A DNA stretch of 64,000 bases from Glutamicibacter nicotianae (GTDB lineage: Bacteria; Actinomycetota; Actinomycetes; Actinomycetales; Micrococcaceae), in assembly GCF_006539525.1 (NCBI RefSeq), contig NZ_BJNE01000009.1:62001-126000 (forward strand). Reading direction: 5' to 3'. Of this stretch, positions 43,126-62,956 are shown piece by piece. Under the pieces are notes generated by a model that had not been told where the DNA came from, did no database searches, and saw only the letters and a program-made list of their open reading frames with translations. Position numbers and translations under genes: made by a program. Position 1 is the first letter of the stretch, and each line of letters opens with the position of its first letter.

Positions 43126-43222
43126 TTATATCGAGTTACCTGATATCGAGAATCGCCCTGCATGATTGACGCAACGACTTCTCCTCGGCCTGCCCAGGCC
43201 TCCCAAATACAGATTGGCCATC

Positions 43223-44215
43223 ATGGCAGACGCATTAAATTTCAGCATTAGCACCACCAGATTCGACGAGAATTACTCCCCTTCTGCGAATTCTCGCACC
43301 ACGACAAACTTCGCCAATTTGGCACGCGGAGAGCGCCGCGAAGAGAACCTTCGCAATGCCCTGACGATGATCAACCGCCGCTTCAATTCCCTGGCTCACT
43401 GGGACAATCCCCAAGGTGACCGCTATGAGCTGGAATTGGAAATCATTTCCGCAAATGTACATTTTTCTGCCAATAATGCCGATCAGGAATTTCCTCTTTT
43501 AGAAGTGCTTGAAACCACGATCGTGGATAAACTCACGGGCACCCGGTCCCAGGGCATGGTCGGCAATAATTTTTCTTCTTATGTCCGCGATTACGACTTC
43601 AGCGTGGTGCTTCCAGCTTCGTGCAATGACAGCGGAGCTCCGGTGCTCCCAGAAGATTTTGGCGATCTCCATGGGCAGCTCTTCCAGCATTTCTTGAACT
43701 CACAGGCGTACCGTGAGCGTTTTGCCCAGCTGCCGGTGGTCTGCATCAGCGTCTCGACTTCCAAGACCTATTTCCGCACCGGCAACAGCCATCCAGTGCT
43801 CGGTTTGGAATACCAGCAGGACGAAAATTCATTGACCGACGCGTACTTCGGAAAAATGGGCTTGAGCGTGCGCTACTTCATGCCGCAGGGTGCTGTTGCG
43901 CCACTGGCCTTCTACTTCCGCGGCGACCTGCTCAACGATTACACCAATCTGCAGCTGATCAGCCTGATCAGCACCATGGAGACATTCCAGAAGATCTACC
44001 GCCCGGAGATATACAACGCCAATTCGGCGGCACCGGCTGTGTACCACCCGAGCCTTGGCGCCGAAGATTTCTCCCCCACCCGCGTCTTCTATGACCGCGA
44101 AGAACGAACCCAATTGGGAAAGATCCAAGGCAAGTTCACCGAAGAGCATTTCATCATCCCAAATCGCCAACTGCTCGATCAGTGGTCTTCCTCCTACCCG
44201 ACTCCTGTCGCCTGA
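43223..44215 (+). CDS. mesX: DUF1852 protein required by MesD
   Basis: 330 residues of the DUF1852 family. The protein is soluble, with FSISTTRFDENYSPSANSRTTTNFANLARGERR at the start, a conserved arginine-rich patch, and YFRGDLLNDYTNLQLISLISTMETFQKIYRPEIYN in the C-terminal part. The family was shown genetically to be needed, together with oxygen, for the core methionine synthase MesD; it may supply the methyl group by an oxidative reaction, a mechanism not established. mesD starts 18 bases after its stop. ATG 43223 chosen; an earlier in-frame start at 43166 lacks a good ribosome site. Confidence 0.85.
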   Translation: MADALNFSISTTRFDENYSPSANSRTTTNFANLARGERREENLRNALTMINRRFNSLAHWDNPQGDRYELELEIISANVHFSANNADQEFPLLEVLETTIVDKLTGTRSQGMVGNNFSSYVRDYDFSVVLPASCNDSGAPVLPEDFGDLHGQLFQHFLNSQAYRERFAQLPVVCISVSTSKTYFRTGNSHPVLGLEYQQDENSLTDAYFGKMGLSVRYFMPQGAVAPLAFYFRGDLLNDYTNLQLISLISTMETFQKIYRPEIYNANSAAPAVYHPSLGAEDFSPTRVFYDREERTQLGKIQGKFTEEHFIIPNRQLLDQWSSSYPTPVA

Positions 44216-45274: not shown

Positions 45275-45809
45275 AGCGACAGAATCGGCGACATTATCGT
45301 TGCCCGCAGATGATTTCAAAGCGATCTTCCGCGGGCATCCCGGTGGCGTCAGCCTGATAACCGCCGATGCCGGCGACGGATCAGTTGCCCTCACGGCAAC
45401 ATCCGTGGCTTCGATCAGCGTTGATCCGCCATTGCTCGTCTTCTCGATTTCCGCGCTGTCCTCGGCGGCCAAAGTGCTCACCCGCGCAACTTCTCTTGTC
45501 GTTCACAGCTTGGATGCGCACGACATCGAGGTGGCTAAATTGGGGGCAACCAGTGGGATCGATCGCTTCGCGCAGAAGCAAACGTGGTCAAGGCTGGGCA
45601 CCGGCGAACCGGTATTTGATGGCGTCCGGGCCTGGGTTCGTTGCGCGGTCATCGAGCGGGTTCAAGCGGGCACCTCCACGGTCTTTGTGGCCCGAGCGCT
45701 TGAGTCGCACATTGAACGCGACAGCCAACCCGGCCAACCCAGCAACGGACTGGTCTACCACAACCGCGCCTGGCACCGCTTGGATGAAAACTCGCAGTTA
45801 AACAGTTGA
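45261..45809 (+). CDS. Flavin reductase-like FMN-binding protein
   Basis: 182 residues of the flavin reductase (split-barrel) fold: FRGHPGGVSLITADAGDGSVALTATSVASISVDPPLLVFSI opens it, followed by VHSLDAHDIEVAKLGA and a C-terminal NGLVYHNRAWHRL. GTG 45261 has GAGGAGC seven bases upstream and lies inside the mesD end. It likely supplies reduced flavin to the DUF1852/MesD reaction, which would explain the oxygen need. That role is inference from the operon. Confidence 0.85.
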   Translation: MPASKATESATLSLPADDFKAIFRGHPGGVSLITADAGDGSVALTATSVASISVDPPLLVFSISALSSAAKVLTRATSLVVHSLDAHDIEVAKLGATSGIDRFAQKQTWSRLGTGEPVFDGVRAWVRCAVIERVQAGTSTVFVARALESHIERDSQPGQPSNGLVYHNRAWHRLDENSQLNS

Positions 45810-45810
45810 A

Positions 45811-45850
45811 GCTGTTCGGCCGCTGCCCCTTGGGACAGCGGCCGAACAGC
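45811..45850 (+). terminator. Hairpin closing the mes operon
   Basis: Perfect 15-base-pair stem (45811-45825 with 45836-45850) directly after the reductase stop; no strong T tract. It may also serve the convergent zeta-toxin gene. Confidence 0.65.
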
Positions 45851-45885
45851 CTCAGATTACACTAGCGGTCTTGTGTCGCAGCGAG

Positions 45886-46326
45886 TTAGCGCTTGGCGGA
45901 CTTGTTCCCCTGGGATTCAAGTTCTTTCACCAATGAAGTTTTCAACCGATCCAGATTCCCAGTCTCTAGTTCGTGCTGGATGATCTTCTCTTTGAACATA
46001 TCCGGGTCGCAATGCACGTAACCAGGTACATTATTCAAACGTTCCCGCTGCACGGTTCCCTTGCCAGCTCCGGGCGGTCCAGCCATCACAATGGCTTTTC
46101 CCTCGTGGTTGATTTCACCGCGCTTGGCCGACTCGGCAACAACCTCTTGCATCCACTTCTTATGCAAAAGTTCCCGCTCCGACATGGCACGTGGGCGCGA
46201 TCCGATTTGAATAAAATACTGCTCTTGTTTGATCGTCGAGTATGCCCCGCGCGGGTTCATATCAGGATCTGCCAGCACCTGGCGCAGCGCCGCGTAATGT
46301 CGTTCTATTGATTCGTCGTTAGCCAA
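45886..46326 (-). CDS. Zeta-toxin-like kinase, short form
   Basis: 146 residues. The P-loop GPPGAGKGT at about 85-93 follows an N-terminal segment, and the YVHCDPDMFKEKII stretch matches the zeta-toxin substrate-binding aspartate region. Zeta toxins phosphorylate UDP-GlcNAc or related sugars. Full-length members continue for over 100 further residues with a second motif set; here the protein ends in a short basic tail (GNKSAKR), so it is probably truncated and may be inactive. Paired with the HTH gene upstream, 26 bases away. Confidence 0.72.
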   Translation of the reverse strand: MANDESIERHYAALRQVLADPDMNPRGAYSTIKQEQYFIQIGSRPRAMSERELLHKKWMQEVVAESAKRGEINHEGKAIVMAGPPGAGKGTVQRERLNNVPGYVHCDPDMFKEKIIQHELETGNLDRLKTSLVKELESQGNKSAKR

Positions 46327-46352
46327 CGATTCACCCTTCGGTTGCTCGCCGC

Positions 46353-46811
46353 CTAATCGGCCGTCTTCATCAACACTTCATCGTAAGTAGCGGCGTCGAT
46401 CAGCTCATGCCGCAACGCGTCGCCCACTTCTTCCCAAGTTCCATCCAGGCTCTCTTCGTACTCGCCATACTCGTTCGCCCAGGGGGTCGGCTTGTACGGC
46501 CACTCGACCAGCTGGCGCACCAGTTCCTCACGATCGATATACCCGGCCGCATACCGCTGGCACACCTCATAAGGGCTTGCAGCGTTGAACTCCCCAACCA
46601 CAGCCGGCACAGCCTGGGCACGCTGCAACGCCTTCGCCACCGCGGGCTGGGACATACCCAGCAGCGCCGCCATCTCACGCTGAGTCATCCCGCCAGCAGC
46701 AGCCTTCAAAGTACGCTTATAGTCCAGCGCATCAACCTCGACACGCTGCCGAGCTTTCAGCAGCTGCGCACGCATATCATCATGCTGCGGGCGTTCCATT
46801 AGCTGACTCAT
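46353..46811 (-). CDS. HTH protein, likely antitoxin partner of the zeta gene
   Basis: 152 residues. A helix-turn-helix at about 41-62 (MTQREMAALLGMSQPAVAKAL) is followed by an acidic C-terminal part ending EVGDALRHELIDAATYDEVLM, rich in Trp and Glu, which could bind the toxin. Position just ahead of a zeta-type gene in the same direction fits an autoregulated toxin-antitoxin operon. It is not a classic epsilon antitoxin, which is smaller. Confidence 0.65.
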   Translation of the reverse strand: MSQLMERPQHDDMRAQLLKARQRVEVDALDYKRTLKAAAGGMTQREMAALLGMSQPAVAKALQRAQAVPAVVGEFNAASPYEVCQRYAAGYIDREELVRQLVEWPYKPTPWANEYGEYEESLDGTWEEVGDALRHELIDAATYDEVLMKTAD

Positions 46812-48450: not shown

Positions 48451-49203
48451 ATGCAAAAAAACGATGAACCCGTAAGCAAGAAGCTCTATCTACTTATCCT
48501 TATCCTCCTCATTGCCGTCGCAGCTGCTACGGTTTTTTTCACGCCAATCTTGCCCCCAGATTTCCAAAGCGTTGTCGGCTCCACCGTCGGTTCAATTGTT
48601 GGTACAGCCCTCGCGTTCCTGGGGGCGGTATGGCTGTGGGTCAAGGAGCAGCGGAAACTAGCTGCCGACGAAGCCGAGCGTGACTCCAAGCTTCTAACCG
48701 AAGAGATAGAACGTAAAAGCAAAGACCAGATAAAACAGCATCAATCTCGCGACAAAGAACTGCTTAGAGAAGCTCACGCGACGGTTGGAAGCCTTATCGC
48801 TTTCAACTATCACGACACGCGTCTGGACCCCGCGAGCATAGCCCTACAAAAACGCCTGCTTCAAACAAAACTCACTCAAACTGCCGCTTTGATTCACGAC
48901 GACACATTACGCCAAGAGTGCAAATTCATTAACGACATCGCAGCATCCGATTCAGACCTAATCCAGTACCTCAGCATGGATGTCAGCAGTCGACTCTATA
49001 CGGCTCAAGGATGGTACGTTCGACTTATCTCTCTCCCAGAGCAGTCCCCCGTATCAGAGGCAAGACCACCCCACTACGCACGCCTCAAGAAGGCTGTAGA
49101 CGAGTGGTATGACTACCTTGACCAGCAGTATCAAGCTCAGATGGAGTGGGAAGAAGAGCAAAGGAAAAACCTTAAAAATACGAACGACTCCGAGGAAAAC
49201 TAG
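48451..49203 (+). CDS. Membrane-anchored coiled-coil protein of unknown function
   Basis: 250 residues. Two hydrophobic helices at about 11-30 and 40-63 form a hairpin, followed by a charged helical segment (EQRKLAADEAERDSKLL, EEIERKSKDQIKQHQS) likely to be a coiled coil, and a soluble alpha-helical domain ending in an acidic, Glu/Gln-rich tail. No enzymatic motif. AGGAGA lies before the ATG. It precedes a winged-helix/PLD-like gene in the same direction and sits in a defence-type neighbourhood, AT-richer than the chromosome to the left. Confidence 0.6.
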   Translation: MQKNDEPVSKKLYLLILILLIAVAAATVFFTPILPPDFQSVVGSTVGSIVGTALAFLGAVWLWVKEQRKLAADEAERDSKLLTEEIERKSKDQIKQHQSRDKELLREAHATVGSLIAFNYHDTRLDPASIALQKRLLQTKLTQTAALIHDDTLRQECKFINDIAASDSDLIQYLSMDVSSRLYTAQGWYVRLISLPEQSPVSEARPPHYARLKKAVDEWYDYLDQQYQAQMEWEEEQRKNLKNTNDSEEN

Positions 49204-49274: not shown

Positions 49275-50123
49275 ATGGTGCATTCTTTACTTATGGAGAT
49301 CGTAAGCAAACGCACCCATCAAGTACTGTCCTACATCGCCGCTCTAGATAGCCCCGATGTATTGATCCCCGTGGAATCTGTAAACGAGTACGGAGCCAAC
49401 CCCAACATTCACGTCGACAAAGGAGACTGGTGGGATACGGCAAACACACTCGCTGGCCTCGCTAGGAGGCAACGCGCTTTCGATCTCGGTTTTGGAATTC
49501 AGGAAAACTACTCCGACTTTCTTGCTCGTTTTGGTTGGATCGAAATCCAAGGCGGCTCCGTTGTTAGGATTACAGACCTAGGCAAAGCCCTCCTGCGGCA
49601 TCTAAACAAGCCAGTCATCGATACAACCTCTAATGACTTAGTGGAGGTAGTGACCGATCCAGACAACCCTTTTGCTTATGCCGACGCACTTGACGCAGTG
49701 ACCTCCGCGGAAAACTCCCTACTGGTCGACCCCTATCTAAGGCTCGATGAGCTGAGGGACATTGCAGACTTCCGAGTGATTACTCGTGTTCTCATCGGAC
49801 ACAAGCTGAAGCCCAAGGACTACACCCTTATGTCACACGGCCTCGCGGGACTTCTCAATGCCGGGAACGAAATCGAGATTCGAAAAAGTACGGCTTTACA
49901 CGATCGCTACCTGATACCGCCCGTTGGCAACGTGGTCATGCTCGGCTCATCCTTGAACGGAATTCAAAAGAATATTTGTACTTTTACGACCTTAGGCACT
50001 CGATCATCAGAGGCACTGCGCAGTTTGCACGAGGAAATCTGGAACGAAGCAGAAAGCATAGAGCCAACAGCTTCCCAACACCGTGGACCGGAGGAAGAAA
50101 CGGCGAAACCCACTGAGTCTTAG
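49275..50123 (+). CDS. Winged-helix protein with PLD-like C-terminal domain
   Basis: 282 residues. The N-terminal 110 residues look like a winged helix (DTANTLAGLARRQRAFDLGF, VRITDLGKALLRHLN). From about 130 the protein has a beta/alpha fold with DPYLRLDELRDIADFRVITR, and near 215 LHDRYLIPPVGNVVMLGSSL followed by NGIQKN. This HDR...GSSxN pattern matches PLD-like domains in which the HKD lysine is arginine. Some such domains bind or cut nucleic acid; activity here is uncertain. 71 bases after the coiled-coil gene. Start may be ATG 49275 or 49293. Confidence 0.6.
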   Translation: MVHSLLMEIVSKRTHQVLSYIAALDSPDVLIPVESVNEYGANPNIHVDKGDWWDTANTLAGLARRQRAFDLGFGIQENYSDFLARFGWIEIQGGSVVRITDLGKALLRHLNKPVIDTTSNDLVEVVTDPDNPFAYADALDAVTSAENSLLVDPYLRLDELRDIADFRVITRVLIGHKLKPKDYTLMSHGLAGLLNAGNEIEIRKSTALHDRYLIPPVGNVVMLGSSLNGIQKNICTFTTLGTRSSEALRSLHEEIWNEAESIEPTASQHRGPEEETAKPTES

Positions 50124-50422
50124 TGGAGCCATTGAAAACTTCCCAATAGGGCTATTTCACCTCTTACTGGGAAAAATGTTTCGGGAATCGCTTTCGGGAA
50201 ATCAGGATCATTGAAAACCGCCAATTTGAGCATTTGCTCACCAGGAGTTTTTTCGCATCCCGAAAACGGTCGTTTATGACACACCATGCCGATGTCTCCA
50301 CCGAAAATTCCTGAAGGTCAAAAACTCAACAGGTTTTTAAACGCAACTCGTCGCAAAACTCAGTGCCACAAACTATGCGTCGAAACAGTATCTATTCCAC
50401 GAGTATTGATACATTCGGACAC
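50124..50422. other. Gene-free stretch with transposon-end-like motif
   Basis: No gene seen. GAAAACCGCCAATTTGAGC at 50213-50231 matches 16 of 19 bases of the inner part of the Tni-type transposon end at 59127-59145. It may hold the site for the recombinase that follows. Confidence 0.4.
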
Positions 50423-51001
50423 ATGGGACACCTCCTCGGATACGCCAGAGTCTCCACCGGCGGCCAAGACGCACAACTCCAGCTCGATGCACTCACCAAA
50501 GCCGGCTGTTATCGCATCTTCACAGACACCGCTTCCGGCGCCCTCGAGTCACGCCCTGAACTCGATAAGCTGCTAGATCAGATACGGCCGGGCGACACTC
50601 TCGTGGTTTGGAGGCTCGATCGACTCGGTCGCTCCATTCGCCACCTGATCAATCACATGGACGCGCTGCAGCAGCGAGGGATCGAATTCAAATCCCTGCA
50701 GGAGAACATCGACACCAGCTCCTCCGGCGGACGGCTCGTGTTCAACATATTCGCATCCCTCGCCGAGTTCGAGCGCGACCTCATCCGCGAACGAACCAAC
50801 GCCGGACTCCAAGCCGCTCGAGCCCGCGGCCGCACCGGAGGGCGGCCTCCTGCCCTCTCCCCCGACAAGCTACGCACCGCGAAGAAACTTTATGAACAGC
50901 GAGACATGACAGTTGCACAGATTGGGGAGGTCTTGGGGGTCAGTCGCAGCACCCTCTACCGGGCATTAAGCAAGACCAAAATTTTTCCTATCTGTGATTG
51001 A
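50423..51001 (+). CDS. Serine recombinase (resolvase/invertase)
   Basis: 192 residues. Catalytic N-terminal domain with the nucleophile Ser11 in GYARVSTGGQ, the VVWRLDRLGRS segment, and the SLAEFERDLIRERT dimer helix; C-terminal helix-turn-helix (VAQIGEVLGVSRSTLYRAL). Small DNA-invertase/resolvase type. It lies immediately before the Gabija-like genes and may have brought them in. ATG 50423 sits at the usual start of the fold; a longer frame begins at 50363. Confidence 0.88.
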   Translation: MGHLLGYARVSTGGQDAQLQLDALTKAGCYRIFTDTASGALESRPELDKLLDQIRPGDTLVVWRLDRLGRSIRHLINHMDALQQRGIEFKSLQENIDTSSSGGRLVFNIFASLAEFERDLIRERTNAGLQAARARGRTGGRPPALSPDKLRTAKKLYEQRDMTVAQIGEVLGVSRSTLYRALSKTKIFPICD

Positions 51002-51138
51002 CGATAGTGTTACAAAAGCAAATGAGTTCCAACAGGTATTCTTTCCGCAAATATCGATGTTCAGGGCTTCCGAATCCTCACTCGGGTACACTCGGAAAAA
51101 TTTTATGGCTGGCCAAAATTTAGAAACTAGGGGATACC

Positions 51139-52848
51139 GTGCGTATTCATGAGATTTCGATAGAAAACTTTCGAGGCATCAAATGCTTCAAGTGGCGTCC
51201 AACTAGTTCATTTGCATCATTGATTGGTCCTGGTGATTCTGGAAAATCCACAGTACTGGATGCATTAGAGCTGGCTTTCTCCCCTCGATGGAGCCATGTC
51301 TTCACCGACAACGATTTTTATACTTGTAGCATTTCTGAAAGAGATTCTGTAGACGAAATAATCATTCAAGTAACAGTCGTTGATCCGCCGCAAGAATTAC
51401 TACGCATTGATTCGTTTATGGCCTACACTCGCGGCGTCGATTCAGAAAGTGGAGCGATCGTTGATGAGCCTGACTCTGAGTCCCCTGCCCTCACTGTGGA
51501 ACTTAGAGTGGACAGATCTCTAGAACCAGTTTGGCAAGTCGTTGCAGATCGTCAAGCTACTCCAGCTCCACTGCGTTCGTCCCATCGCGCGAGCTTTGGG
51601 GTAATCAGGATTGGTGGTGAAGCAAGAGCTGATTTGCGTTGGTCTCGAACTTCCGGGCTATTACGCATGACTAATGAAAACGATCAAAAGCCTGTCGGTC
51701 AAAAACTCGTGGAGGCCGCAAGAGCCGCAAAACAAGCAACAGCCTCGTCATTTGAAGAACTTATTGACGTAACTGATCAAGTTACAACCGTAGCCCGCTC
51801 ATTGCGTGCTATCCATGGTGTCACACCGCTAACGGCCGCACTCAATGCAGATACTCTTCAGATCAAGGAGGGATCCGTTTCGCTCCATCAGAATGATGTC
51901 CCTTTAGAGCGATACGGTCTTGGCTCCCGCCGGCTAACCAGTATTGCGGTGCAGCTAGTAAACGCTGTTCATGCGCGAGTTCTACTCATAGATGAGATCG
52001 AGTCGGGGCTGGAACCGCACCGAATCCGTCATCTATTACTTCAATTGAAGAAAAACCTAAACGAAAATCCATCTCTGACTCAGGTATTCGCAACCACTCA
52101 TTCTCCTGTTGTGCTTCGGGAACTACAGAGCACCGAGCTTGCGGTAATTCGTCGAAACACGACTGGAATGACTGAGGCAAATATACCGGGATCAGAAATG
52201 CAAGGTGTGCTGCGTAAAAATGCTGAAGCATTCCTAGCCCCGGCAGTACTAGTTTGCGAGGGAATCACGGAGCAAGGATTTACCAAGGGTGTATTGGCTC
52301 ACGCAGAAAGGAATGGATTCGAGTTCCTAGCTGAAGCAACTACGGCGGATGCTGGCGGCGAAAAAAAGGTTACCGAATACGCCAACGCATTTGCTCGACT
52401 CGGATACAAAACAGGAGCATTTTACGATCACGATACGGATTATGACTTCTCTTCAATGTCCGCAAGCGTCACTCAGATTAGGTGCGATGAAGGCCTTTCG
52501 CTTGAGAAACAGATCGCTAATTCACTTTCTGCCTTGGGACTAAAGCTCGCTCTTGAACACGGTGCTAGTAGCTTGACGCTAGACGGCGTAACTATGTCCC
52601 TGGAAGCTTTCGGGTGCCCTAGAAGAGTTTCCGAGTTGATATTCGCGGGTGAAGAAATCACTGATTTTGAACTCTCACAGGCCCGATCGGCATTAGGGCA
52701 GACTGCTTCAAAAAACAAGAACGCCGCTAATTGGTTTAAGTCTATGGATCGCGGTGAACGCCTCGCAGAAATCGCTATTCCAAACTGCGTAGGCGAACCG
52801 GCAGAACGAATTATCAACGCATTACGGGCATGGGCTTCCCATGAGTGA
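51139..52848 (+). CDS. gajA: GajA-like OLD-family ATPase/TOPRIM nuclease
   Basis: 569 residues. ABC-type ATPase: FRGIKCFKW at 11, Walker A GPGDSGKST at 30-38, signature-like GLGSRRLTSIAVQL, Walker B RVLLIDEIESGLEPH near 280, and the TTHSPVVLREL switch. TOPRIM: acidic Glu in VCEGITEQG near 373 and the Asp pair in FYDHDTDYDF near 430. This is the domain order of OLD-family nucleases. A UvrD-like helicase gene overlaps its end by eight bases, so it belongs to class 2 OLD, the GajA subunit of Gabija anti-phage systems. GTG start with AGGGGA upstream. Low GC compared with housekeeping genes. Confidence 0.86.
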   Translation: MRIHEISIENFRGIKCFKWRPTSSFASLIGPGDSGKSTVLDALELAFSPRWSHVFTDNDFYTCSISERDSVDEIIIQVTVVDPPQELLRIDSFMAYTRGVDSESGAIVDEPDSESPALTVELRVDRSLEPVWQVVADRQATPAPLRSSHRASFGVIRIGGEARADLRWSRTSGLLRMTNENDQKPVGQKLVEAARAAKQATASSFEELIDVTDQVTTVARSLRAIHGVTPLTAALNADTLQIKEGSVSLHQNDVPLERYGLGSRRLTSIAVQLVNAVHARVLLIDEIESGLEPHRIRHLLLQLKKNLNENPSLTQVFATTHSPVVLRELQSTELAVIRRNTTGMTEANIPGSEMQGVLRKNAEAFLAPAVLVCEGITEQGFTKGVLAHAERNGFEFLAEATTADAGGEKKVTEYANAFARLGYKTGAFYDHDTDYDFSSMSASVTQIRCDEGLSLEKQIANSLSALGLKLALEHGASSLTLDGVTMSLEAFGCPRRVSELIFAGEEITDFELSQARSALGQTASKNKNAANWFKSMDRGERLAEIAIPNCVGEPAERIINALRAWASHE

Positions 52849-54211
52849 AACACTCGATTTGTCCGTTCTCGGAACGGGATCAGTAATAGCTCCGGCTGGG
52901 CATGGCAAAACCTATTCGATAGGAAAGACAGCTCATGACCACCCAGAATTACGCATTCTGGCGCTAACTCATACGAATGCCGGCGTTGCCGCTCTCAAAC
53001 GCCACTCGCAAAACGGTTCACGATCGTTCCGCGTCGAGACAATTTCATCTTTTTGTCTGCGGATCGCCAGAGCATTTCCCGGTCGTGCCGGATGGGATGA
53101 GAGTACTTTCGATCTGTCGTTGATAGTTCCTGCAGCTCTCCGCGCTCTTTCTAGCCCTACGGTTCTATCTGTAGTGGCGTCAGGCTTTGACCTGATAATC
53201 GTGGATGAATACCAGGACTGTTCTCCGGGTCAAGCAGCAATCATTGATTCATTAGCAGTTCTTGTTCAAACCGTCATTGTTGGTGATCCTCTGCAAGCAA
53301 TTTACGACTTCGGCGCTGACGGAGCTATAAAGTGGACCGGGGAAACTTCAGTCTTCCCCCAGGTGGGGGAATTGACCACCCCCCATCGTTGGAGGGCAAC
53401 GAATCCCGCATTGGGTGAATGGCTTCGGGACACCAGGTCACGCTTGCTGACGGGACAGAATCCTGATGTAAAAGCCGTAGGATGCCCGGTGATCTTAGAT
53501 TGGAAAGCATCGGATGTCATGCAGCGAAAGCTTCATAAATATCTGACCCCCGGAGTTACCACAGCAATAATTACCCCCGACTCTCGCAATACTCATGCGC
53601 TATCTACGGTAGCCCGTTCATATGGGGGCCGCCTTCGAGTGGCCGAAGCTGCGGATTTTAATACTGTCCGACACGTTACGAAGAAAATCGACGATGCCAC
53701 CAACCGAGCCGAGATCCTAGTGATTCTCATTGACTTCCTTGCGTCAGTTCAGACAAGAATTAAGACTAGTGTCGTCAATACGCTACGAGGACATTTGATA
53801 TCCACCGGTACGGTAGGCCGCTCACGAAATGTAATAGTTACAACCGCAAATCAATATCTGATGGACGGCGAGCTCGCATCGGCACTAACGTTCGTCCAAA
53901 AACTTATCGAAGTGGGCGATGCAATCTACAGACCAGATTCTCAATCGTTGCTTGTACGGGCGATCGCAAGCCAAGTATCGGACCCTGATCGGAGCCTCGA
54001 AGAATGCGCCCAGAATCTAATTGATACGATGCATCACCGCACTTCTTGGGTTCCCAAAGGGAATATAGTTGGAACTACACTTCGTCTCAAGGGACTTGAA
54101 TTCGATCGAGTCGTGATAATGGATCCTATTTCCATCCATGATCAAAAGCATCTCTACGTAGCTTTAACACGGCCATCACGTGAATTAATACTAGTTTTTA
54201 ATGAAAATTAG
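52841..54211 (+). CDS. gajB: GajB-like UvrD/Rep helicase
   Basis: 456 residues, superfamily 1A helicase. Motifs in order: Walker A APAGHGKT at 17-24, TLTHTNAG-like motif Ia (LALTHTNAGVAALK), motif II IIVDEYQDCS near 120, motif III VGDPLQAIYDF near 147, a short 2A/2B region, motif V GTTLRLKGLEFDRVVIMD, and motif VI LYVALTRPSREL. It is shorter than UvrD (over 650), like GajB. In Gabija, GajB is thought to sense DNA ends and nucleotide depletion products and activate GajA nicking. Overlaps gajA by eight bases. Confidence 0.86.
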   Translation: MSETLDLSVLGTGSVIAPAGHGKTYSIGKTAHDHPELRILALTHTNAGVAALKRHSQNGSRSFRVETISSFCLRIARAFPGRAGWDESTFDLSLIVPAALRALSSPTVLSVVASGFDLIIVDEYQDCSPGQAAIIDSLAVLVQTVIVGDPLQAIYDFGADGAIKWTGETSVFPQVGELTTPHRWRATNPALGEWLRDTRSRLLTGQNPDVKAVGCPVILDWKASDVMQRKLHKYLTPGVTTAIITPDSRNTHALSTVARSYGGRLRVAEAADFNTVRHVTKKIDDATNRAEILVILIDFLASVQTRIKTSVVNTLRGHLISTGTVGRSRNVIVTTANQYLMDGELASALTFVQKLIEVGDAIYRPDSQSLLVRAIASQVSDPDRSLEECAQNLIDTMHHRTSWVPKGNIVGTTLRLKGLEFDRVVIMDPISIHDQKHLYVALTRPSRELILVFNEN

Positions 54212-54237
54212 ACCTTATTCGAACACGAATTCTCGCT

Positions 54238-54264
54238 ACCTATAGGTTGCAAGACGTCTCACCG
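54238..54264 (+). repeat. 27-base repeat, copy 1
   Basis: Core GGTTGCAAGACGTCTCACCG (54245-54264), identical at 62152-62171; the seven bases before it differ at two places. It contains the palindrome AGACGTCT. Confidence 0.85.
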
Positions 54265-54277
54265 CATGTCACTCCCC

Positions 54278-54307
54278 TGTGACTGTTGACGTTATTTGAC
54301 GGCTAAA
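54278..54307 (+). repeat. Left terminal inverted repeat
   Basis: TGTGACTGTTGACGTTATTT at 54278-54297, continuing GACGGC. A second copy of the inner motif, AGCTCCAAGTGGCGGTTTT, follows at 54313-54331, as expected for the serial transposase sites at Tn552-type ends. Confidence 0.7.
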
Positions 54308-54777
54308 TCGCAGCTCCAAGTGGCGGTTTTAGCCGGCCATAAGCGGGACTGTATATGTGAGCGCCGAGAAACGCGAGGGCACGGTCCAAAATCTCGAAGC
54401 TAAAGGCATCGACCGTGAGATGGAGAGCATTCGCGTCGAGGTGACGTCAGCTCAGGAAGCCTGCCATCAGGGCCGTCAAGGGCATCAGAAAGTCCAAAGT
54501 TCCTGAGGACCACACACCCCGCGGCCTTGGCGCTCAAATTCAATGACCTGGCTTGGACCAATAGTGATCTCGCCTGTCACCGTTCTAATTTCTTCGATAG
54601 GTCGCAATGCCGCACCTGACCGATGCCTCGAATCAGCCCTTACCGAAGACTATGAACTTTCAGCCTGCTGTTAAGGTGCATCGTGGTAAAAATCTAGGCA
54701 AGAAGTTACACTATTGAAGATAATAAAAATATTGAGCCCAGAACCAAAAGTTTAAACTACAAGCGTCGGGCATAACG
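54308..54777. other. Leader region of transposon cargo
   Basis: No supported gene. One small frame, GTG 54357 to 54506, could encode a charged 49-residue helical peptide but has no clear ribosome site. The last 100 bases before the secreted-protein gene are AT-rich and probably contain its promoter. Confidence 0.35.
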
Positions 54778-55437
54778 ATGAATTTTACTTTTGTAACATT
54801 ACCCCTTGCGTTGTCTTTGGTAGCTGTATTACCGGGGATGGCGCAGGCTGTTGAAATTCCTGTTAGCGACACCCATACGGTGCAGCAGTCTTCGGAATAT
54901 GCCCTTTCAACGAAAGATTTCTTCCCCGAGAAAACCCCTACGGAATCGAACTACATCGAAGCGGAATCGCCTGCCGATGCAGTAGCCAAGATGGATAAGA
55001 TGGACGAACTACGCAAAGCTGGATTCAATGTGGGTGCCATGGCAAAAGTGAATTATGGGCCTTGCAAGATCGTTGCCGCAGGTTTTCACACCAGAAAATC
55101 TGGGAACTATAGTACGGGTGGCTTCAAATCCACAACCTATTGCACCACGAAAGTCACTTCGATCAAGCATTCTTCACAGGCGCGATTTAAACGATTAGCC
55201 TGGTGGATCAAGGGTGGCCCGGATATTAGCCAGCCAGCCCAAAAGATAAAGGGCGATAAATATAACGGCACTTACTATCCTGTTGTCTTCACGCAGACAA
55301 ATCACGCACTGTCATGCAAATCTGCGAAAAAAACCACATGGTCAGGCCGTACTCTCGGATCTATTGTCTACAAAGGCAAGACTTACTATGCTGATGCCTA
55401 CGCTCCTGTACAGAAGGGGGTTCCATGCCGTCTCTAA
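54778..55437 (+). CDS. Secreted cysteine-containing protein, transposon cargo
   Basis: 219 residues. Signal peptide MNFTFVTLPLALSLVAVLPG followed by a MAQA cleavage site. The mature part has a propeptide-like acidic stretch (to about residue 85) and a basic, Lys/Thr/Tyr-rich domain with four cysteines (in YGPCK, TTYCTT, LSCKSA and VPCRL), enough for two disulfides. No enzyme family recognised. Its end overlaps the next gene by 13 bases, so the two are coupled. A secreted protein paired with a cytosolic one fits an effector-immunity idea, but nothing proves it. Confidence 0.68.
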   Translation: MNFTFVTLPLALSLVAVLPGMAQAVEIPVSDTHTVQQSSEYALSTKDFFPEKTPTESNYIEAESPADAVAKMDKMDELRKAGFNVGAMAKVNYGPCKIVAAGFHTRKSGNYSTGGFKSTTYCTTKVTSIKHSSQARFKRLAWWIKGGPDISQPAQKIKGDKYNGTYYPVVFTQTNHALSCKSAKKTTWSGRTLGSIVYKGKTYYADAYAPVQKGVPCRL

Positions 55438-55886
55438 GCAGTATCCTGACAAAAATCAAGATTCGCCTGGGCTCGAAATATTCAGAAGATCAGATGGTCT
55501 ACGTCGTCTATGGGAAACAACCCAGCCCATTTCCAGATCTTGAATACATAGAGCCAATAATTGCGATCGTGGCCAGTGAACGTGAATGCTTTGCGATTCA
55601 GGAAAAGTATCTAGACACTAAAGTCAGCTGGGAAGCTCGTAAGGTGCAGGGTGCCGAAAGCATAGACCTGGTAGATGGCTGCGTTTTGTATCTGACGCAT
55701 ACTACTTTGTCATCGTACGATGAGGACGCCGATGGGAATCCAATCTTCGGGATCATGGAGAATCCACAGCCCACGGCTCTATATTGCAGTCGGGGCGCCG
55801 CTGAACAGCAAGCACCGGATCAATACCTGCACATCGTTACCCTCGGTGAAATAAACCTTCGTGGCGTCGGAGAGCTTTTGGAATAA
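55425..55886 (+). CDS. Cytosolic partner of the secreted cargo protein
   Basis: 153 residues, acidic, no signal peptide or membrane helix. A mixed alpha/beta protein with QMVYVVYGKQPSPFPDLEYI and a DEDADGNPIFGIMENP loop. No family recognised. It starts inside the end of the secreted-protein gene (13-base overlap) and is followed by a strong terminator, so the two make one transcript. Confidence 0.68.
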   Translation: MPSLSSILTKIKIRLGSKYSEDQMVYVVYGKQPSPFPDLEYIEPIIAIVASERECFAIQEKYLDTKVSWEARKVQGAESIDLVDGCVLYLTHTTLSSYDEDADGNPIFGIMENPQPTALYCSRGAAEQQAPDQYLHIVTLGEINLRGVGELLE

Positions 55887-55930
55887 GTGTCCAGCACCCT
55901 ACGCCAATACCTGAAGTTGCCAGACATGAC

Positions 55931-55962
55931 GGGGCCGCACCTACCAGGTGCGGCCCCTCTTC
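55931..55962 (+). terminator. Rho-independent terminator of cargo operon
   Basis: Perfect 12-base-pair stem (55931-55942 with 55946-55957), three-base loop and TCTTC tail. Confidence 0.85.
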
Positions 55963-56025
55963 ATGTTGCTTGCCACGTTGCAGGAGATGGTATCGGTTTA
56001 GATGCCTGCTTGACCCTATCCGCGT

Positions 56026-56180
56026 TGTCTCAACAAACTAAAGATTATTGAGACACTCTCCTCAGCGCGGCCATGCCGTCTCAATATTCCGGAACGGCAA
56101 GGAGTCCAACCGTCTTATAAAGTCGTCCCAACGTAAAACGTCTTACCTGCTTGCCGTGCAGGGGTTTTTGAGCCACACTG
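56026..56180 (+). promoter_or_regulatory. Probable res site of the Tni resolvase
   Basis: TGTCTCAA-N14-TTGAGACA (56026-56055) is a perfect 30-base resolvase-type inverted repeat (subsite I). A second partial copy, CGTCTCAATATTCCGGAACG (56077-56096), follows before the resolvase start, the layout of a multi-subsite res region. Confidence 0.65.
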
Positions 56181-56185
56181 GGCAG

Positions 56186-56779
56186 GTGAGACATTTGGGA
56201 TACACGCGCGTGAGCACTTTGAGCCAAGACGCGGCCTTGCAGCTCGATGCCCTGGTTGCTTCAGGGGTGCAGAAGCGCGACGTGTTCGCCGACGTGACTT
56301 CCGGCAGCCGCAGCGCGATCGAGCGGCCCGGAATGAAGAATCTGCTGGACTATGCCGAAGCCGGCGACACCGTCGTGGTGTGGCGGGTTGACCGGCTGGG
56401 CCGCTCCCTGATCGATGTCTTGAATACCGTGAACCTTTTGCGGGAGCGCGGGATTAATGTCCGCTCCATTTCCGATGGCATCGACCCGGCCACCTCGACC
56501 GGTCGGATGATGCTGAACATGCTTGCCTCGTTGGCCGAATACGAGCGCGAATTGATCGTGGAACGAGTCAACGCCGGCATTGCCGCCGCCCGGCAATCCG
56601 GAACCCGTTTCGGCCGGCCGGCCTCTGACCCGGCAGTGATTGCCGACAAGCTCGCGATCGCCAAAGATGCCCGCGCCAGGGGACGCACCGCCGAAGACGC
56701 AGCACGCCTGGTTGGCTGGAGCCGCGCAACGTTCTACCGCCACTTGGGCCAAGAGCCCGCCTCTTCCAAGAGCTTGTGA
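56186..56779 (+). CDS. tniR: Transposon resolvase (serine recombinase)
   Basis: 197 residues. Nucleophile Ser10 in GYTRVSTLSQ, VVWRVDRLGRSLIDVL, the SLAEYERELIVERVNAGI dimer helix, and a C-terminal helix-turn-helix (AEDAARLVGWSRATFYRHL). GTG 56186 is the natural start; the longer frame begins at 56048. It resolves cointegrates formed by the TniA/TniB pathway. The transposase gene starts seven bases downstream. Confidence 0.88.
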   Translation: MRHLGYTRVSTLSQDAALQLDALVASGVQKRDVFADVTSGSRSAIERPGMKNLLDYAEAGDTVVVWRVDRLGRSLIDVLNTVNLLRERGINVRSISDGIDPATSTGRMMLNMLASLAEYERELIVERVNAGIAAARQSGTRFGRPASDPAVIADKLAIAKDARARGRTAEDAARLVGWSRATFYRHLGQEPASSKSL

Positions 56780-56785
56780 TCGGCC

Positions 56786-58294
56786 ATGTCCCGGCGAAGC
56801 GAAACGCGCAGGGACGCACCGCTGGGGCGAGACCAGAATGACAGCAGTACCGAGAAAGCAGGAACTCCTCGTGACTACCTGGCTAAGGCAACAGCACGTT
56901 GGGAAATGCTGCGGCAACACGTCGAAGACGGAGTGCCGCTGACGGTTCTGGCAGGGGAACACCATATCGGCCTGAGGACACTGCAACGATGGCACCAGAG
57001 CTTCAAGCTCCACGGGAAGCCTGGTCTGGAACCGGTGGCACCTGGCAAACGTGGACGCCGGATGCCCAGCGAATTCGTGAACCTGGTCGAAGGCCTCGCC
57101 TTAGCTAAACCGCCCAGGACCACGGCAGCCATCCACGAACAAGTCAACAAGGTAGCGCTCCACCAAGGGTGGGCACCGGTTTCCTACTCCACCATCCGCT
57201 CGATTGTCGGCGAGATAGATCCGGGGATGATGACGCTGGCGCAGCAAGGTACGGCGGCGTACCGAGATAAATATGAACTGGTCTGGCGCCGCCGCGCCGA
57301 ACGCCCGAACGCGGTGTGGCAGGCCGATCATACCGAGCTCGACATCCTGGTTTTTGACGCTAGCCACCAGCCGGTCCGCCCGTGGCTCACCACGATCATG
57401 GATGATTACTCGCGAGCCCTCTGCGGGTACATGATCTTCACCGGCGCCCCCTCATCCTTGAATACGGCATTGGTGTTGCGTGAGGCGATCTGGCCCAAAA
57501 AGACAGCTTATTGGCCGATGTGCGGAATCCCTGATGTGCTCTATGTAGACCACGGAACCGATTTCACGAGCCACCACTTAGCGCAGGCCGCCAGAGACCT
57601 GCACTTCGAAATCATTTTCTCCACGGTGGCCCGGCCGCAGGGCAGAGGAAAGATTGAGCGATTCTTCGGCACCCTCAATACCGAGCTCTTAGCCCGGTTG
57701 CCTGGCTACCTGCACAGCGTGCCCAATCCTAAGCCGGGGCTGTCCATCGGTGAACTGGACACGGCGCTAGAAGAGTTCATTGGGCAGAACTATCACCAGC
57801 GTGAGCATCAAGAGATCAAGGAAACGCCTCAAAAAGCGTGGCAGGGCAACGGCTGGTTACCGCGTCTGCCTGAAACCATCGATGAACTGAACCTGCTGCT
57901 GCTCACGGTCGCCAAACCAAGAATCGTCCACCGCGATGGCGTGCACTTCCAAGGCCTACGCTACATTTCCCCGTTGCTGGCCGCCTACGTCGGAGAATCC
58001 GTCATTCTTCGCTACGACCCTCGGGACGTTGCCGAGATCCAGGTCTTTCACCGGGGCCAGCACATCTGCAAAGCCGTGGATCCCACGCATGAACGAGCCA
58101 CCGTGACGTTCAAGGACATCCAGAAGGCACGCTCCGCACGCAAGCGTCAGTTGCGCGGACAAATCAAAGAACGAATAGCCACCGTCGCAGAATTTCTACC
58201 GGCCGGACAACCACCAACGGAGCCAACCCAACCTGATCCGGCGGCCCACCCAACTAAGAAAACGAAGTTGCGCACCTACGCAGAGGACGAATAA
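56786..58294 (+). CDS. tniA: TniA-type DDE transposase
   Basis: 502 residues of the Mu/TnsB/TniA group. N-terminal helix-turn-helix (LTVLAGEHHIGLRTLQRWHQ), catalytic DDE: first Asp in WQADHTELD, second in YVDHGTDF, Glu in RGKIERFFGTLN, then a Mu-C-terminal beta-barrel and a proline-rich end. The order with TniB behind (start overlaps the stop, TAATG) is that of Tn552 and Tn402 families. Exact start uncertain (no good ribosome site near 56786). Confidence 0.92.
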   Translation: MSRRSETRRDAPLGRDQNDSSTEKAGTPRDYLAKATARWEMLRQHVEDGVPLTVLAGEHHIGLRTLQRWHQSFKLHGKPGLEPVAPGKRGRRMPSEFVNLVEGLALAKPPRTTAAIHEQVNKVALHQGWAPVSYSTIRSIVGEIDPGMMTLAQQGTAAYRDKYELVWRRRAERPNAVWQADHTELDILVFDASHQPVRPWLTTIMDDYSRALCGYMIFTGAPSSLNTALVLREAIWPKKTAYWPMCGIPDVLYVDHGTDFTSHHLAQAARDLHFEIIFSTVARPQGRGKIERFFGTLNTELLARLPGYLHSVPNPKPGLSIGELDTALEEFIGQNYHQREHQEIKETPQKAWQGNGWLPRLPETIDELNLLLLTVAKPRIVHRDGVHFQGLRYISPLLAAYVGESVILRYDPRDVAEIQVFHRGQHICKAVDPTHERATVTFKDIQKARSARKRQLRGQIKERIATVAEFLPAGQPPTEPTQPDPAAHPTKKTKLRTYAEDE

Positions 58295-59106
58295 TGGCAC
58301 CCTCAACATTTATCGCAACAAAGGAGCACCGCCGCTTCACTGAGTTCGCCAATGCGGTGCGCAGGCAGCGGACCATCGGGATCTGCTACGGACAAGCTGG
58401 AATCGGCAAAACCCTCTCGGCTAAACGCTATGCCAACTGGAGCCCGAAAGCCGCGGCGTTAGTAGAGGAATGGGGTCGCCGGGAGGACAGCGACCTCCAA
58501 ATCTATAAGGATCTAGCCGAAACGCGAACCGTCTTCTTCACCCCAGGGGTTCTGACAACTCCTAAGCAAATCAAAGAAGAGCTCTCACTGATCACTAATC
58601 GGACCTCGATCTGCATTCACCAACATCTTGATACCCTAGGCGTCACGAACGGTCCGATGAATCAAGACAAGCATGTGGAGCTGATCATCGTCGACGAGTC
58701 GGAACGACTCAACGCCACTGCCTTGGAAGTGCTGCGAGATAGGTATGACAGGAACAATATCGCTCTGATGCTGATTGGGATGCCCGGCATAGAAAAGCAG
58801 TTCAGCCGATATCCTCAGCTCTATAGCCGTGTCGGCTTCGCCCACGAATACCGTCCGCTTGCGCAGGATGAACTGCATTTCGTCCTGCAACGAAAGTGGC
58901 GTGCCCTCGGCAAAACCATGGATTTGGAGGACTTCACCGATACGCAAGCTGTCGCGGCGATCGCGCGCATCACGCGCGGTAATTTCCGGCTGATTGATCG
59001 GCTCTTCACACAGATGCAGCGGGTCCTGAAGATCAATGAGCTGGACACTATTACCGATGACGTTGTTGAAGCTGCGCGTTCCACGCTCGTTATCGGAATC
59101 AGTTGA
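58294..59106 (+). CDS. tniB: TniB-type AAA ATPase
   Basis: 270 residues. Walker A YGQAGIGKTLSAKRYA at about 33-48, Walker B ELIIVDESERL near 130, sensor-like LIGMPGIEKQF. It is a MuB/TnsC-like target-DNA regulator for TniA. No TniQ homologue follows; the element ends 50 bases later. Confidence 0.9.
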   Translation: MAPSTFIATKEHRRFTEFANAVRRQRTIGICYGQAGIGKTLSAKRYANWSPKAAALVEEWGRREDSDLQIYKDLAETRTVFFTPGVLTTPKQIKEELSLITNRTSICIHQHLDTLGVTNGPMNQDKHVELIIVDESERLNATALEVLRDRYDRNNIALMLIGMPGIEKQFSRYPQLYSRVGFAHEYRPLAQDELHFVLQRKWRALGKTMDLEDFTDTQAVAAIARITRGNFRLIDRLFTQMQRVLKINELDTITDDVVEAARSTLVIGIS

Positions 59107-59126
59107 ACCGCCATGAGTATCTGCGC

Positions 59127-59156
59127 GAAAACCGCCAAATCAAGCTAACAGTCACA
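59127..59156 (-). repeat. Right terminal inverted repeat
   Basis: On the minus strand from 59156: TGTGACTGTTAGCTTGATTT then GGCGGTTTTC. Its outer ten bases equal the left end and equal the end at 63046. Confidence 0.78.
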
Positions 59157-59280
59157 CATCAAGGACGGGTGGAGCGCCGACGAATTGAAGAGGTTGGGCC
59201 TGGACCATAAGGCGACACGTCGCCGCCAGACAGCAAAAAAGCCCGTCGAAACCGAGCCATCAGACGACGGAGACGCATAG
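59157..59280 (+). pseudogene. 3' remnant of a gene cut by the transposon
   Basis: Right outside the transposon end a frame reads KDGWSADELKRLGLDHKATR and continues through a charged tail (KKPVETEPSDDGDA) to TAG at 59278-59280. It looks like the last 40 residues of a real protein, the 5' part having been removed. No family recognised, and the left flank does not hold its other half. Confidence 0.5.
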
Positions 59281-59325
59281 CGTCCGCTCCATTGCACCGA
59301 GGCGCGCAGCGGCTACCTGCGTGAC

Positions 59326-59403
59326 GTTGCCCCGCGCCCACATGGGCACGGCAAAAGATCAATCCTCCGGTCTTTTCCCGCACACATGTGGACGCGGGGA
59401 CCC
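59326..59403. repeat. Large imperfect inverted repeat
   Basis: Arms of about 35 bases (59326-59360 with 59369-59403) match at roughly 26 positions around an eight-base centre, sharing CCCCGCG, CCACATG and AAAAGA blocks. Function unknown. Confidence 0.6.
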
Positions 59404-60021
59404 AATCCACCACCCGCACACAACGCCCGGGTTACGACGGCAAGAAAAGCCAACTTCAGGTACCGGGCGATGTGCGCGGCTTCCTTCAGTCGTTGAGGCT
59501 CATTATCCATCCAAGACTTCGCAGTATATGTACCGTCCTTATTCGGTGGGTACAGCGGTGTTCACCCATCTGACCGCCTGTCAACTATCGGAACCACACC
59601 GTGAACTCGATCGGCATTCCAAAGTCTGCTGCTACTACGCGCACATGGAAAAATATCCGTATACCGCAACCGCTCCCCCGTCTTCTCGGTTCAATTCCCT
59701 GCAGCCGGTGCTTCCCTTCTTCTGGGCGCAGGAGTGACCAGCGGTGCTTCTCCGGGCCTTCCCCTCCAGCGAGATCGTCGCGGTCTCCTGGCCCACGCCC
59801 AAACCCGGATGTCGGAGAATGCGGGAATATCCGCTGTTGAGGGCTGAGCGCCCCAGGGGGATCCCGTCATAACGAAGGTGCTGGTTCGCGGCTTCCATCA
59901 GTCACGAACCAACACCCTCTAGCTACCAAACGGCAGTAATGCCTCCTCCCTTACGCCATACCGGGCTCGGAAGCACGGTCAGGCACGAAATCAGGGGCCG
60001 GGAAACTATCGATTGCGACAG
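59404..60021. other. No gene supported
   Basis: Only short overlapping frames without ribosome sites or family likeness. It is probably decayed DNA between the transposon and the permease. Confidence 0.5.
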
Positions 60022-61464
60022 CTAGCCGCGAAGCACGGCCGCTTCAACAGACCTCGCGTAGTCGCCCTTCCCTGCCGGTTTCACGAAGAGCAGCGTGAAC
60101 ACCCAATGTGCTGCGCCGGCGACAACAACAGAAGGCAGGCTCGCCGTCAAGAAATCGAAAGGAGGATGCGTCTCGTATGTGATCGGGTTCAGAAGGGAGA
60201 GATACGTGGCAACCCCCAGCGCCAACGCCAGGAACGCCCACCAATTCACGCCTCCCCAGAACCAGTATGCCGAGTCGCGTGAACTGGAGTAGATCGCTCG
60301 AACCGAGACAAACTGCTTTCGGAGAAAGTAGTAGTCAACAATCTGTACCCCACAAATTGGGGCGAGAATCAGACCAACGAAGGCATTGATCGTGCCGATT
60401 CGGTCGAACAGGAGATCCGGCATCAAGGCAACGATAAACCCGACAGGAATAAGCGAGAGCGCCAGCACGGCCGCCCAGGGCAATTCCTTGTTGAGTCCAG
60501 TCGCCTGCCGAACACCGAGCGACATGCTGTAGGCCCCAATCATCACGGTCGAGATATTGGCGCAGACGATAAAGATGAGAATCGGTACCCCCACCGCCAC
60601 GCCGCTGAGCTCGATGATGTATGAAGTGGGATCTCCCCCCGAATCGGGAAAGACCAAGGCAGCAAAAAGCCCGATGATCGAGATCAGGGAAAGCGGCAAG
60701 CACAACCCCAGCAGAACGGGATTCATCGCCTTGCGGGATGACGAAAGATTCTGCGTAATGCCACCGACATAGGGCCACCATGACAACGACACGGCGATCA
60801 ACATTTCCGCCCCTATGGTCAGGTTCCCGAGCTTGGAATCAACAGGAGCCAAGGCCGGTGCCGAAACAACGGAATCCCAACCAATGGTCGACACCAGGTT
60901 ATAGAGAATCCAGAATGCCATGACGACAACAACTGCAGCGATCCAAAAGCCGACCCTGGTCATACGGGAAGGCCCCTTCCGAAGAACCCACCAAATGAAG
61001 AGAAGACCCAGCAGTGCGGAAACGACCATGATGACATGACGGGCCGATTCAGGCGCCAAACCCGTGCTGATCAAGAGTTCGGCGGTAGCCCTTCCCATGA
61101 AAATAAGCAGCACGCTGTTCCAACCCACCAGAATGAATCCGGCGATGATCACGACCACCCACGGACCAAACTGCCCCAGAGCCGGTTTGACCGACATGAT
61201 CGACTCGACACCATAACGGGTGGAAATGGGTATCAAAGCCAAGAAAATGACGAGAATGCCTATGAGGCCCCCCGCGATCATCGTAAGCATGCCGGGTATG
61301 GCCGGAAGATAGACAGCTACAAATCCCCCGAGGAGAAAGCACCAGGTGGCCACCGCTGTGGATGCCGAAAGACCAACTGTTGCAAGCTTCGTCCAATTTC
61401 GCTGTCCGGGTGCTGTCGGCTTCGCAGCTTCAGCCTCGTTACCGGCTTCCATTCGTTGACTCAT
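60022..61464 (-). CDS. NCS1-family nucleobase/cation permease
   Basis: About 480 residues with twelve membrane helices. The N-terminal half shows WTKLATVGLSASTAVATWCF and ALIPISTRYGVESIMSVKPALG, and the second half shows AICGVQIVDYYFLR-like APICGVQIVDYYFLRKQF near the end, a hallmark of NCS1 carriers for cytosine, uracil, hydantoin or related compounds. Translation begins about where a 49-residue membrane peptide gene ends, suggesting coupling. The substrate is unclear; no catabolic genes are adjacent. Start ATG 61464 (a GTG lies two codons earlier). Confidence 0.85.
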   Translation of the reverse strand: MSQRMEAGNEAEAAKPTAPGQRNWTKLATVGLSASTAVATWCFLLGGFVAVYLPAIPGMLTMIAGGLIGILVIFLALIPISTRYGVESIMSVKPALGQFGPWVVVIIAGFILVGWNSVLLIFMGRATAELLISTGLAPESARHVIMVVSALLGLLFIWWVLRKGPSRMTRVGFWIAAVVVVMAFWILYNLVSTIGWDSVVSAPALAPVDSKLGNLTIGAEMLIAVSLSWWPYVGGITQNLSSSRKAMNPVLLGLCLPLSLISIIGLFAALVFPDSGGDPTSYIIELSGVAVGVPILIFIVCANISTVMIGAYSMSLGVRQATGLNKELPWAAVLALSLIPVGFIVALMPDLLFDRIGTINAFVGLILAPICGVQIVDYYFLRKQFVSVRAIYSSSRDSAYWFWGGVNWWAFLALALGVATYLSLLNPITYETHPPFDFLTASLPSVVVAGAAHWVFTLLFVKPAGKGDYARSVEAAVLRG

Positions 61465-61466
61465 AC

Positions 61467-61616
61467 TCACATCACCACGTATGCGGCGATCAACATGATC
61501 GCAGGAATAAGCGCGGTAAAAACAAGCAGCGTCACGAGCTCTGCCCCGCCGAACGGACCAACCTCGGCTGCGTGTTGCTCAATAACCACCAATAGGTCTT
61601 CATGTGGATCGTGCAT
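61467..61616 (-). CDS. 49-residue membrane peptide coupled to the permease
   Basis: Starting MHDPHEDLLVVIEQHAAEVG, it then has one long hydrophobic helix (LVTLLVFTALIPAIMLIAAY) and ends VVM at a TGA that lies three bases before the permease ATG. Small helical partners of this kind occur beside several carriers. It is below usual gene-calling limits. Supported by clean topology and by its stop/start contact; ribosome site weak. Confidence 0.5.
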   Translation of the reverse strand: MHDPHEDLLVVIEQHAAEVGPFGGAELVTLLVFTALIPAIMLIAAYVVM

Positions 61617-62144: not shown

Positions 62145-62171
62145 ACCCATGGGTTGCAAGACGTCTCACCG
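62145..62171 (+). repeat. 27-base repeat, copy 2
   Basis: Same core GGTTGCAAGACGTCTCACCG as at 54245-54264, here 127 bases upstream of a recombinase start. Likely part of its recombination region. Confidence 0.85.
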
Positions 62172-62221
62172 AGCGCCGCTCCCCCAGCTGAAAATCCTTG
62201 AAAACTCAACGGTTCTAAATT

Positions 62222-62280: not shown

Positions 62281-62297
62281 ACACTTTCAAGGGTTCC

Positions 62298-62879: not shown

Positions 62880-62956
62880 ACATCCCAAAAACCTTCCGTG
62901 CCCCTTCAAGCCCGGTCGACTTTCGGTACCAGGTTTTGGGAATCCAAGAACATTGA

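Follow-up and report, generated by a model that had tools for sequence, protein, structure and literature searches.

Are two overlapping genes of Glutamicibacter nicotianae, one for an OLD-type ATPase and nuclease and the other for a UvrD-like helicase, a Gabija defence system, or was a similar machine assembled separately? The genes occupy positions 51139 to 54211 of a 64,000-nucleotide stretch of contig NZ_BJNE01000009.1 (positions 62,001 to 126,000), called the window here. An original prediction made from the letters of the window had identified them as the GajA/GajB pair of Gabija. By gene content and profile matches they belong to Gabija, and by descent they likely do so as well; very probably they constitute a two-gene defence system, a GajA nuclease and a GajB helicase, the products of which would act on invading DNA. 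This real Gabija pair represents a divergent yet well-populated branch that is already covered by PADLOC, and as a finding it is ordinary, although it raises a modest question about structure. No literature linking Gabija with Glutamicibacter was found. Published systems are compared below from excerpts of the papers cited.

The gene pair and its active-site residues

The first gene, gajA (51139..52848; 569 amino acids, GTG start), encodes a class 2 OLD-type nuclease with an ABC ATPase domain, a TOPRIM domain and a C-terminal helical region, and the second, gajB (52841..54211; 456 amino acids, ATG start), encodes a compact UvrD-like superfamily 1A (SF1A) helicase. Both reading frames are intact and lie on the forward strand, with 8 nt in common (52841..52848, forward strand, ATGAGTGA), exactly the overlap of eight bases that had been claimed; this ATGAGTGA overlap likely couples the translation of the two genes. 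The PADLOC and hidden Markov model check that the original prediction had proposed returned GajA and GajB models as the top matches: GajA has its best match in PDLC04168 (506 bits, E 3.5e-152, residues 2-568) and GajB in PDLC04173 (350 bits, E 4.5e-105, residues 6-454). These matches are not due to chance. Best matches outside the class 2 OLD and UvrD families were looked for, and the best were these GajA and GajB models. The window pair is thus a full-length best match to the PDLC04168 and PDLC04173 families and belongs to the same branch, the members of which, as far as they were found, are all distant from it. In Pfam scans GajA passes the cut-offs of AAA_21 and AAA_15, and GajB passes that of UvrD-helicase with 60.7 bits.

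The TOPRIM acids, reported earlier as a glutamate near residue 373 and an aspartate pair near residue 430, are E374 and D430/D432. They belong to the motifs E374-G-x-x-E378 (52258..52272, forward strand) and D430-x-D432 (52426..52434, forward strand), in which both glutamates and both aspartates are invariant in the 59 aligned sequences over which conservation of GajA residues was counted. A GajA profile built from 17 relatives and aligned to the GajA chains of the PDB sets EGxxE against E379/E383 and DxD against D432/D434 of Bacillus cereus GajA, where all four are active-site residues (PMC10781630, PMC10822852); a missing TOPRIM acid was looked for, and none is absent. The ATPase residues G30, K36 (Walker A), D285/E286 (Walker B) and H321 (H-loop) are likewise invariant (59/59), as is G407, equated with the known invariant glycine by position only. 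Two further residues are conserved to the same degree: E456 (52504..52506, forward strand), close to where the C-terminal helical region begins and inside a model helix at 455-462, and K534 (52738..52740, forward strand), a candidate catalytic lysine in the stretch W-F-K. By their position in the helical region, E456 and K534 would correspond to E508 and K562 of Burkholderia pseudomallei OLD. The class 2 OLD proteins of B. pseudomallei and Xanthomonas resemble the window pair in having a tandem helicase and a helical region, predicted here, in which a glutamate and a lysine are invariant (PMC6755086), although the span from glutamate to lysine is longer in the window GajA (78 residues, as opposed to 54 in BpOLD; PMC6755086).

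The nuclease keeps its catalytic residues, but their spacing is different. From the DxD motif (D432) to the next acid (E456) there are 24 residues in the window GajA and 23-31 across its branch (median 28, 59 sequences), compared with 51 in BpOLD (PMC6755086), 47 in the class 1 OLD of Thermus scotoductus (TsOLD; residue numbers from PMC7049728) and 79 in B. cereus GajA (D434 to D513, PMC10822852). With so short an interval there is little space for Insert-3, the helix that sits between TOPRIM alpha3 and beta4, and the model of the window GajA shows none there. The Insert-3 region is variable in sequence within class 2 (PMC6755086). Its helix is present in the two class 2 TOPRIMs with solved structures, but it is the pairing with a helicase, not the helix, that gives class 2 its name.

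A degenerate, non-functional copy might be suspected from the shortness of the TOPRIM segment that follows DxD (24 residues, where the branch median is 28) and from the predicted structure, in which no helix lies between residues 430 and 443. The frames are intact, however, the catalytic residues are kept, and the AlphaFold models, built from alignments of the window with genome-contig loci, have high confidence (predicted local distance difference test, pLDDT, 89.8 for GajA and 91.3 for GajB), so that decay of the system is very unlikely.

Other defence systems that use the OLD fold (a class 1 OLD, an effector of the Retron-Eco8 type, or PARIS with its proteins AriA and AriB) are a scarcely credible identity for the pair. 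The AriA, Old and AbiLi models do match, weakly, with 64-79 bits, and the Retron-Eco8 OLD is among the top fold matches of GajA, but those scores are far below the 506 bits of the GajA model, the TOPRIM domain is in the same chain as the ATPase, and the helicase partner is conserved. PARIS consists of an AriA ATPase and a separate AriB TOPRIM protein; it was rejected on the basis of the single chain and of an AriA model score of 79 bits against 506 for GajA. Retron-Eco8, a class 3 OLD system, was rejected because no reverse transcriptase is present among the neighbouring open reading frames (ORFs) scanned, its non-coding RNA not having been searched for. A class 1 OLD, which would be a lone gene without a C-terminal helical domain, was rejected because a helicase partner is present and the model contains a helical region, with predicted helices between residues 455 and 567.

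Relatives, helicase partner and ancestry

Relatives of GajA are widespread, and all are distant. They occur in 311 of 72,556 plasmid records; 253 of these have at least 80% of the protein covered in one place, all at less than 60% identity, and the best-ranked plasmid match has 35.1% identity over 99% of the protein. In genome contigs a profile of 17 proteins detects at least 464 encoding stretches, of which the best 80 were analysed; identity in these 80 loci reaches at most 39%, over residues 2-432, and shorter pieces can run higher. The record titles of the matches listed place the branch in genomes of many phyla. GajA is present in one of 18 genomes of the genus, the window's own (E up to 1e-10), and PDLC04168 is matched in three of 396 genomes of the phylum, the same genome included (E up to 1e-30). 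The presence of gajAB is sporadic within the genus.

This distribution bears on whether the pair is instead a system for maintaining mobile elements or excluding plasmids, directed mainly against competing plasmids and not against phages. Of the 311 GajA-bearing plasmid records 197 are predicted to be conjugative, and GajA has no match in 50,697 phage records; a search of viral contigs with the single protein also gave no match, and an alignment-based search then gave nine loci. Defence genes, however, are commonly carried on plasmids, and relatives are also carried on megabase contigs, such as L036 (8.2 Mb) and L088 (3.6 Mb). Gabija has moreover been tested as an anti-phage system (PMC10781630, PMC12407980), and a primary role against plasmids seems unlikely.

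Pairing with the helicase is the rule in the branch. The 108 loci compared (L010-L117) were all fetched through GajA, and GajB adjoins it in 104 of them, 102 by a distance rule and in addition L014, which has a split gajA, and L056, which has a long ORF start; two of the remaining loci (L093 and L117) stop at a contig edge. Some relatives have a split or truncated gajB. Among 48 pairs of L029-L108 for which both starts were refined, an overlap of 8 nt is the commonest junction (19/48), and the genes overlap to some extent in 47.

Several results weigh against assigning the pair to Gabija. Two loci, L085 and L091, have no GajB beside GajA. GajA reaches only 20.2 bits with the Pfam OLD-like_TOPRIM model, under the cut-off of 23.2, and a genome search with this model at E up to 1e-5 misses it altogether, while NCBIfam yields nothing over cut-off for either protein. 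In single-sequence phmmer searches of PDB sequences, B. cereus GajA and GajB are reached at E values of just 0.16 and 0.21, from which it follows that the pair is a distant branch. In Foldseek searches of the PDB, class 1 TsOLD (6P74, the top match at 6e-17) and the Retron-Eco8 OLD (2e-16) rank above the best Gabija GajA chain (3e-16), the listed GajA chains having template modelling (TM) scores of 0.39-0.51 normalised by query or target, and Rep/UvrD (4e-16) ranks above Gabija GajB (9e-12), with TM-scores of 0.30-0.38. The modest TM-scores to Gabija chains (0.30-0.51) therefore support the class of fold and not close kinship. Finally, the tree, in which long branches meet, gives no settled link between the window's branch and other Gabija branches.

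That tree comprises 41 proteins: 20 of the 59 A3 sequences, L010, L011, and 19 OLD loci from a set of 30 (L156-L185), from which 11 with an ORF shorter than 500 amino acids had been removed. The window protein and 19 branch members form one clade (100/99), which is joined by the helicase-paired proteins of L010 and L011 (100/99); both of these, which had been retrieved by means of the branch's own model, score 210 and 104 bits, respectively, with the A1 profile.

The helicase shows its own peculiarities. All five motifs claimed for it are present in GajB: I (AGHGKT), II (DEYQDC), III (GDPLQ), V (LKGLE) and VI (YVALTR), and the residues at their core do not vary among 60 sequences. It is also short, as had been stated, with 456 amino acids compared to 493-499 in solved GajB chains. 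Its interval from motif I to motif II is 99 residues, within a range of 99-110 in the 60 sequences; in seven other helicases that accompany OLD proteins in the phylum (L157, L165, L169-L172 and L175) it is 127-190. The corresponding intervals in the sister loci are 113 (L010) and 177 (L011), and so the short form is not common to all kin. This interval holds the 1B subdomain, for which the window GajB, judging from motif spacing, would have little room. In B. cereus GajB, subdomain 1B bears GajB-GajB and GajA-GajB contacts (PMC10781630). With the space for 1B reduced, docking of GajA to GajB may differ from that in B. cereus, and the predicted interface between the two proteins may accordingly be a different one. 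A literature search, which did not extend to most subscription papers, turned up no account of a GajB branch in which 1B is short.

A rival explanation is an independently assembled system, in which a class 1-like OLD protein and a compact UvrD-like helicase came together separately, acting like Gabija but having another origin of the pairing. In its favour, besides the short DxD-to-acid spacing, the short motif I-II interval and the Foldseek preference for TsOLD and Eco8 OLD, the tree requires four changes of helicase label, and four helicase-less OLD proteins of the phylum score higher with the branch profile (134, 98, 81 and 80 bits) than do the seven helicase-paired ones (18-56 bits), among which the three that were scanned (L157, L171 and L172) are GajA according to PADLOC. 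Against this, an approximately unbiased (AU) test does not reject a single helicase-paired clade (p-AU 0.112), the sisters of the branch with their 210 and 104 bits are helicase-paired, and a profile of the helicase ranks GajB (61 bits) before PcrA (51 bits) among PDB sequences. The deep forks of the tree are unreliable because of the long branches, and the predicted C-terminal helical region with its lysine is a mark of class 2. A separate origin is therefore judged improbable, and the pair is better regarded as a distant branch of Gabija: in comparison with the B. cereus VD045 system (8SM3, 8JQB, 8U7I), it has the same OLD ATPase-TOPRIM protein and UvrD-like helicase, the same aligned E/E and DxD residues and similar lengths, but very low sequence similarity.

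Surroundings of the gene pair

A serine recombinase gene (50363-51001) lies 137 bases upstream of gajA, which agrees with the original prediction, as does the lower G+C content of the region (0.475-0.513 in 1-kb windows of 51000-53999, compared with 0.58-0.69 in 40000-43499). The further claim that the recombinase and the pair came as a unit found no support. BLAST with the window's three serine recombinases (E up to 1e-4), which can miss divergent recombinases, detected no homologue in the 3 kb that precede gajA in any of the 108 loci, and in 92 of them the upstream DNA available exceeds 3 kb; the nearest homologue is 3.3 kb from gajA, in L074. Six further genomes of the genus (G001, G002, G004, G006, G012 and G014) carry DNA related to the upstream recombinase (72-82% identity), and in none of them was a GajA match found. 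Transfer as a unit with this recombinase was rejected as a rule on both grounds, and the recombinase is probably outside the Gabija system. In another genome (G302), a helicase-less OLD gene, the top lone OLD with the branch profile at 134 bits, is followed by a serine recombinase (L156).

On the other side of the pair, a transposon of 4,879 bases with TGTGACTGTT inverted ends (54278-59156) begins 66 nt past the gajB stop codon. It contains genes for a serine resolvase (56048), a DDE transposase (56786; 102 bits with an IS481 model, under cut-off) and a TnsC-like ATPase (58294; 25 bits). The transposon is mobile: genome G001 has a copy elsewhere that is 99.7% identical, and the right-hand 3.0-3.2 kb of the transposon are found at 90-94% identity in L146-L148. 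Neither copy showed a target duplication. Carriage of Gabija as transposon cargo was rejected, gajAB being outside the left end and the 99.7% copy being in a genome where no GajA was found. A direct repeat of 47 bases (81%) connects 54231-54277, just before the left end of the transposon, with 62138-62184, upstream of the recombinase at 62274. It is a candidate res site, and by analogy with Tn5053/Tn402 elements, targeting of res sites is a possible lead.

The genome was called Arthrobacter-like, and among plasmid records the near DNA matches of 50200-62900 are indeed to Arthrobacter (five records) and Glutamicibacter (four records) only. Further upstream, a protein of 282 amino acids (49275-50123) weakly matches the candidate defence family PDC-S05 of PADLOC (23.8 bits), and has a stretch H-x-R-Y...G-S-S that we take to resemble half of the site of a phospholipase D. 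Beside it is a protein of 250 amino acids (48451-49203) that has hydrophobic stretches at its N terminus and a charged tail, for which Pfam, NCBIfam and PADLOC gave no clear family. On the reverse strand at 45886-46811 are a helix-turn-helix gene and a P-loop gene, the latter presumably zeta-like, and several genomes of the genus carry similar DNA at different sites. DNA to the left of these genes is shared in place with genomes of the genus up to about 45,790-45,900, and the variable region probably starts there.

Possible action in a host with AdnAB-like genes

If the pair functions as studied Gabija systems do, GajA would act as a TOPRIM nuclease regulated by ATP and GajB as an SF1A helicase, the two being produced together from overlapping genes and forming an assembly by which invading DNA is cut or blocked; complex formation and nucleotide sensing would be carried over from those systems. 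Attack on phage DNA is the most likely function by this analogy, perhaps at the ends of the DNA. Gabija of Pseudomonas aeruginosa PA14, encoded on PAPI-1, resembles the window system in pairing a nuclease with a helicase and in its location within a mobile or variable region, and is described in excerpts of a preprint as blocking the circularisation of linear phage DNA on which RecBCD has not acted (PMC12407980). The target in G. nicotianae could similarly be linear phage DNA with ends on which the host's end-repair machine has not acted.

That machine appears to differ between the two hosts: PA14 possesses RecBCD (PMC12407980), whereas the window's host has an AdnAB-like pair and no match to RecC. 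Two overlapping genes on contig 3 of the same genome (L186, 898-7424) each combine UvrD with PDDEXK_1, and the second of them matches chain B of 6PPU, the title of which names an AdnAB complex, with 600 bits over residues 13-1109. Gabija and AdnAB occur together in two papers, one of them PMC12407980. A recC model had no matches in the genome (an E. coli control matched; RecB and AddAB were not searched separately). On these two results the end-repair machine here would be AdnAB, and AdnAB would shield self DNA in this host if the P. aeruginosa rule carries over. It is a long shot that all of the divergent features belong together, in a separately assembled OLD-helicase immune machine whose compact, short-1B helicase docks unlike the B. 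cereus ring and which, in hosts of this type, polices DNA ends left unoccupied by AdnAB rather than by RecBCD.

Gabija is common, and the GajA/GajB complexes solved in the literature cited are those of B. cereus. With its catalytic residues kept, and with a nuclease spacing and a helicase motif I-II interval that differ, the branch represented in G. nicotianae lends itself naturally to testing which elements of the published assembly are indispensable, and its host is suited to asking whether the rule of RecBCD absence extends to AdnAB.

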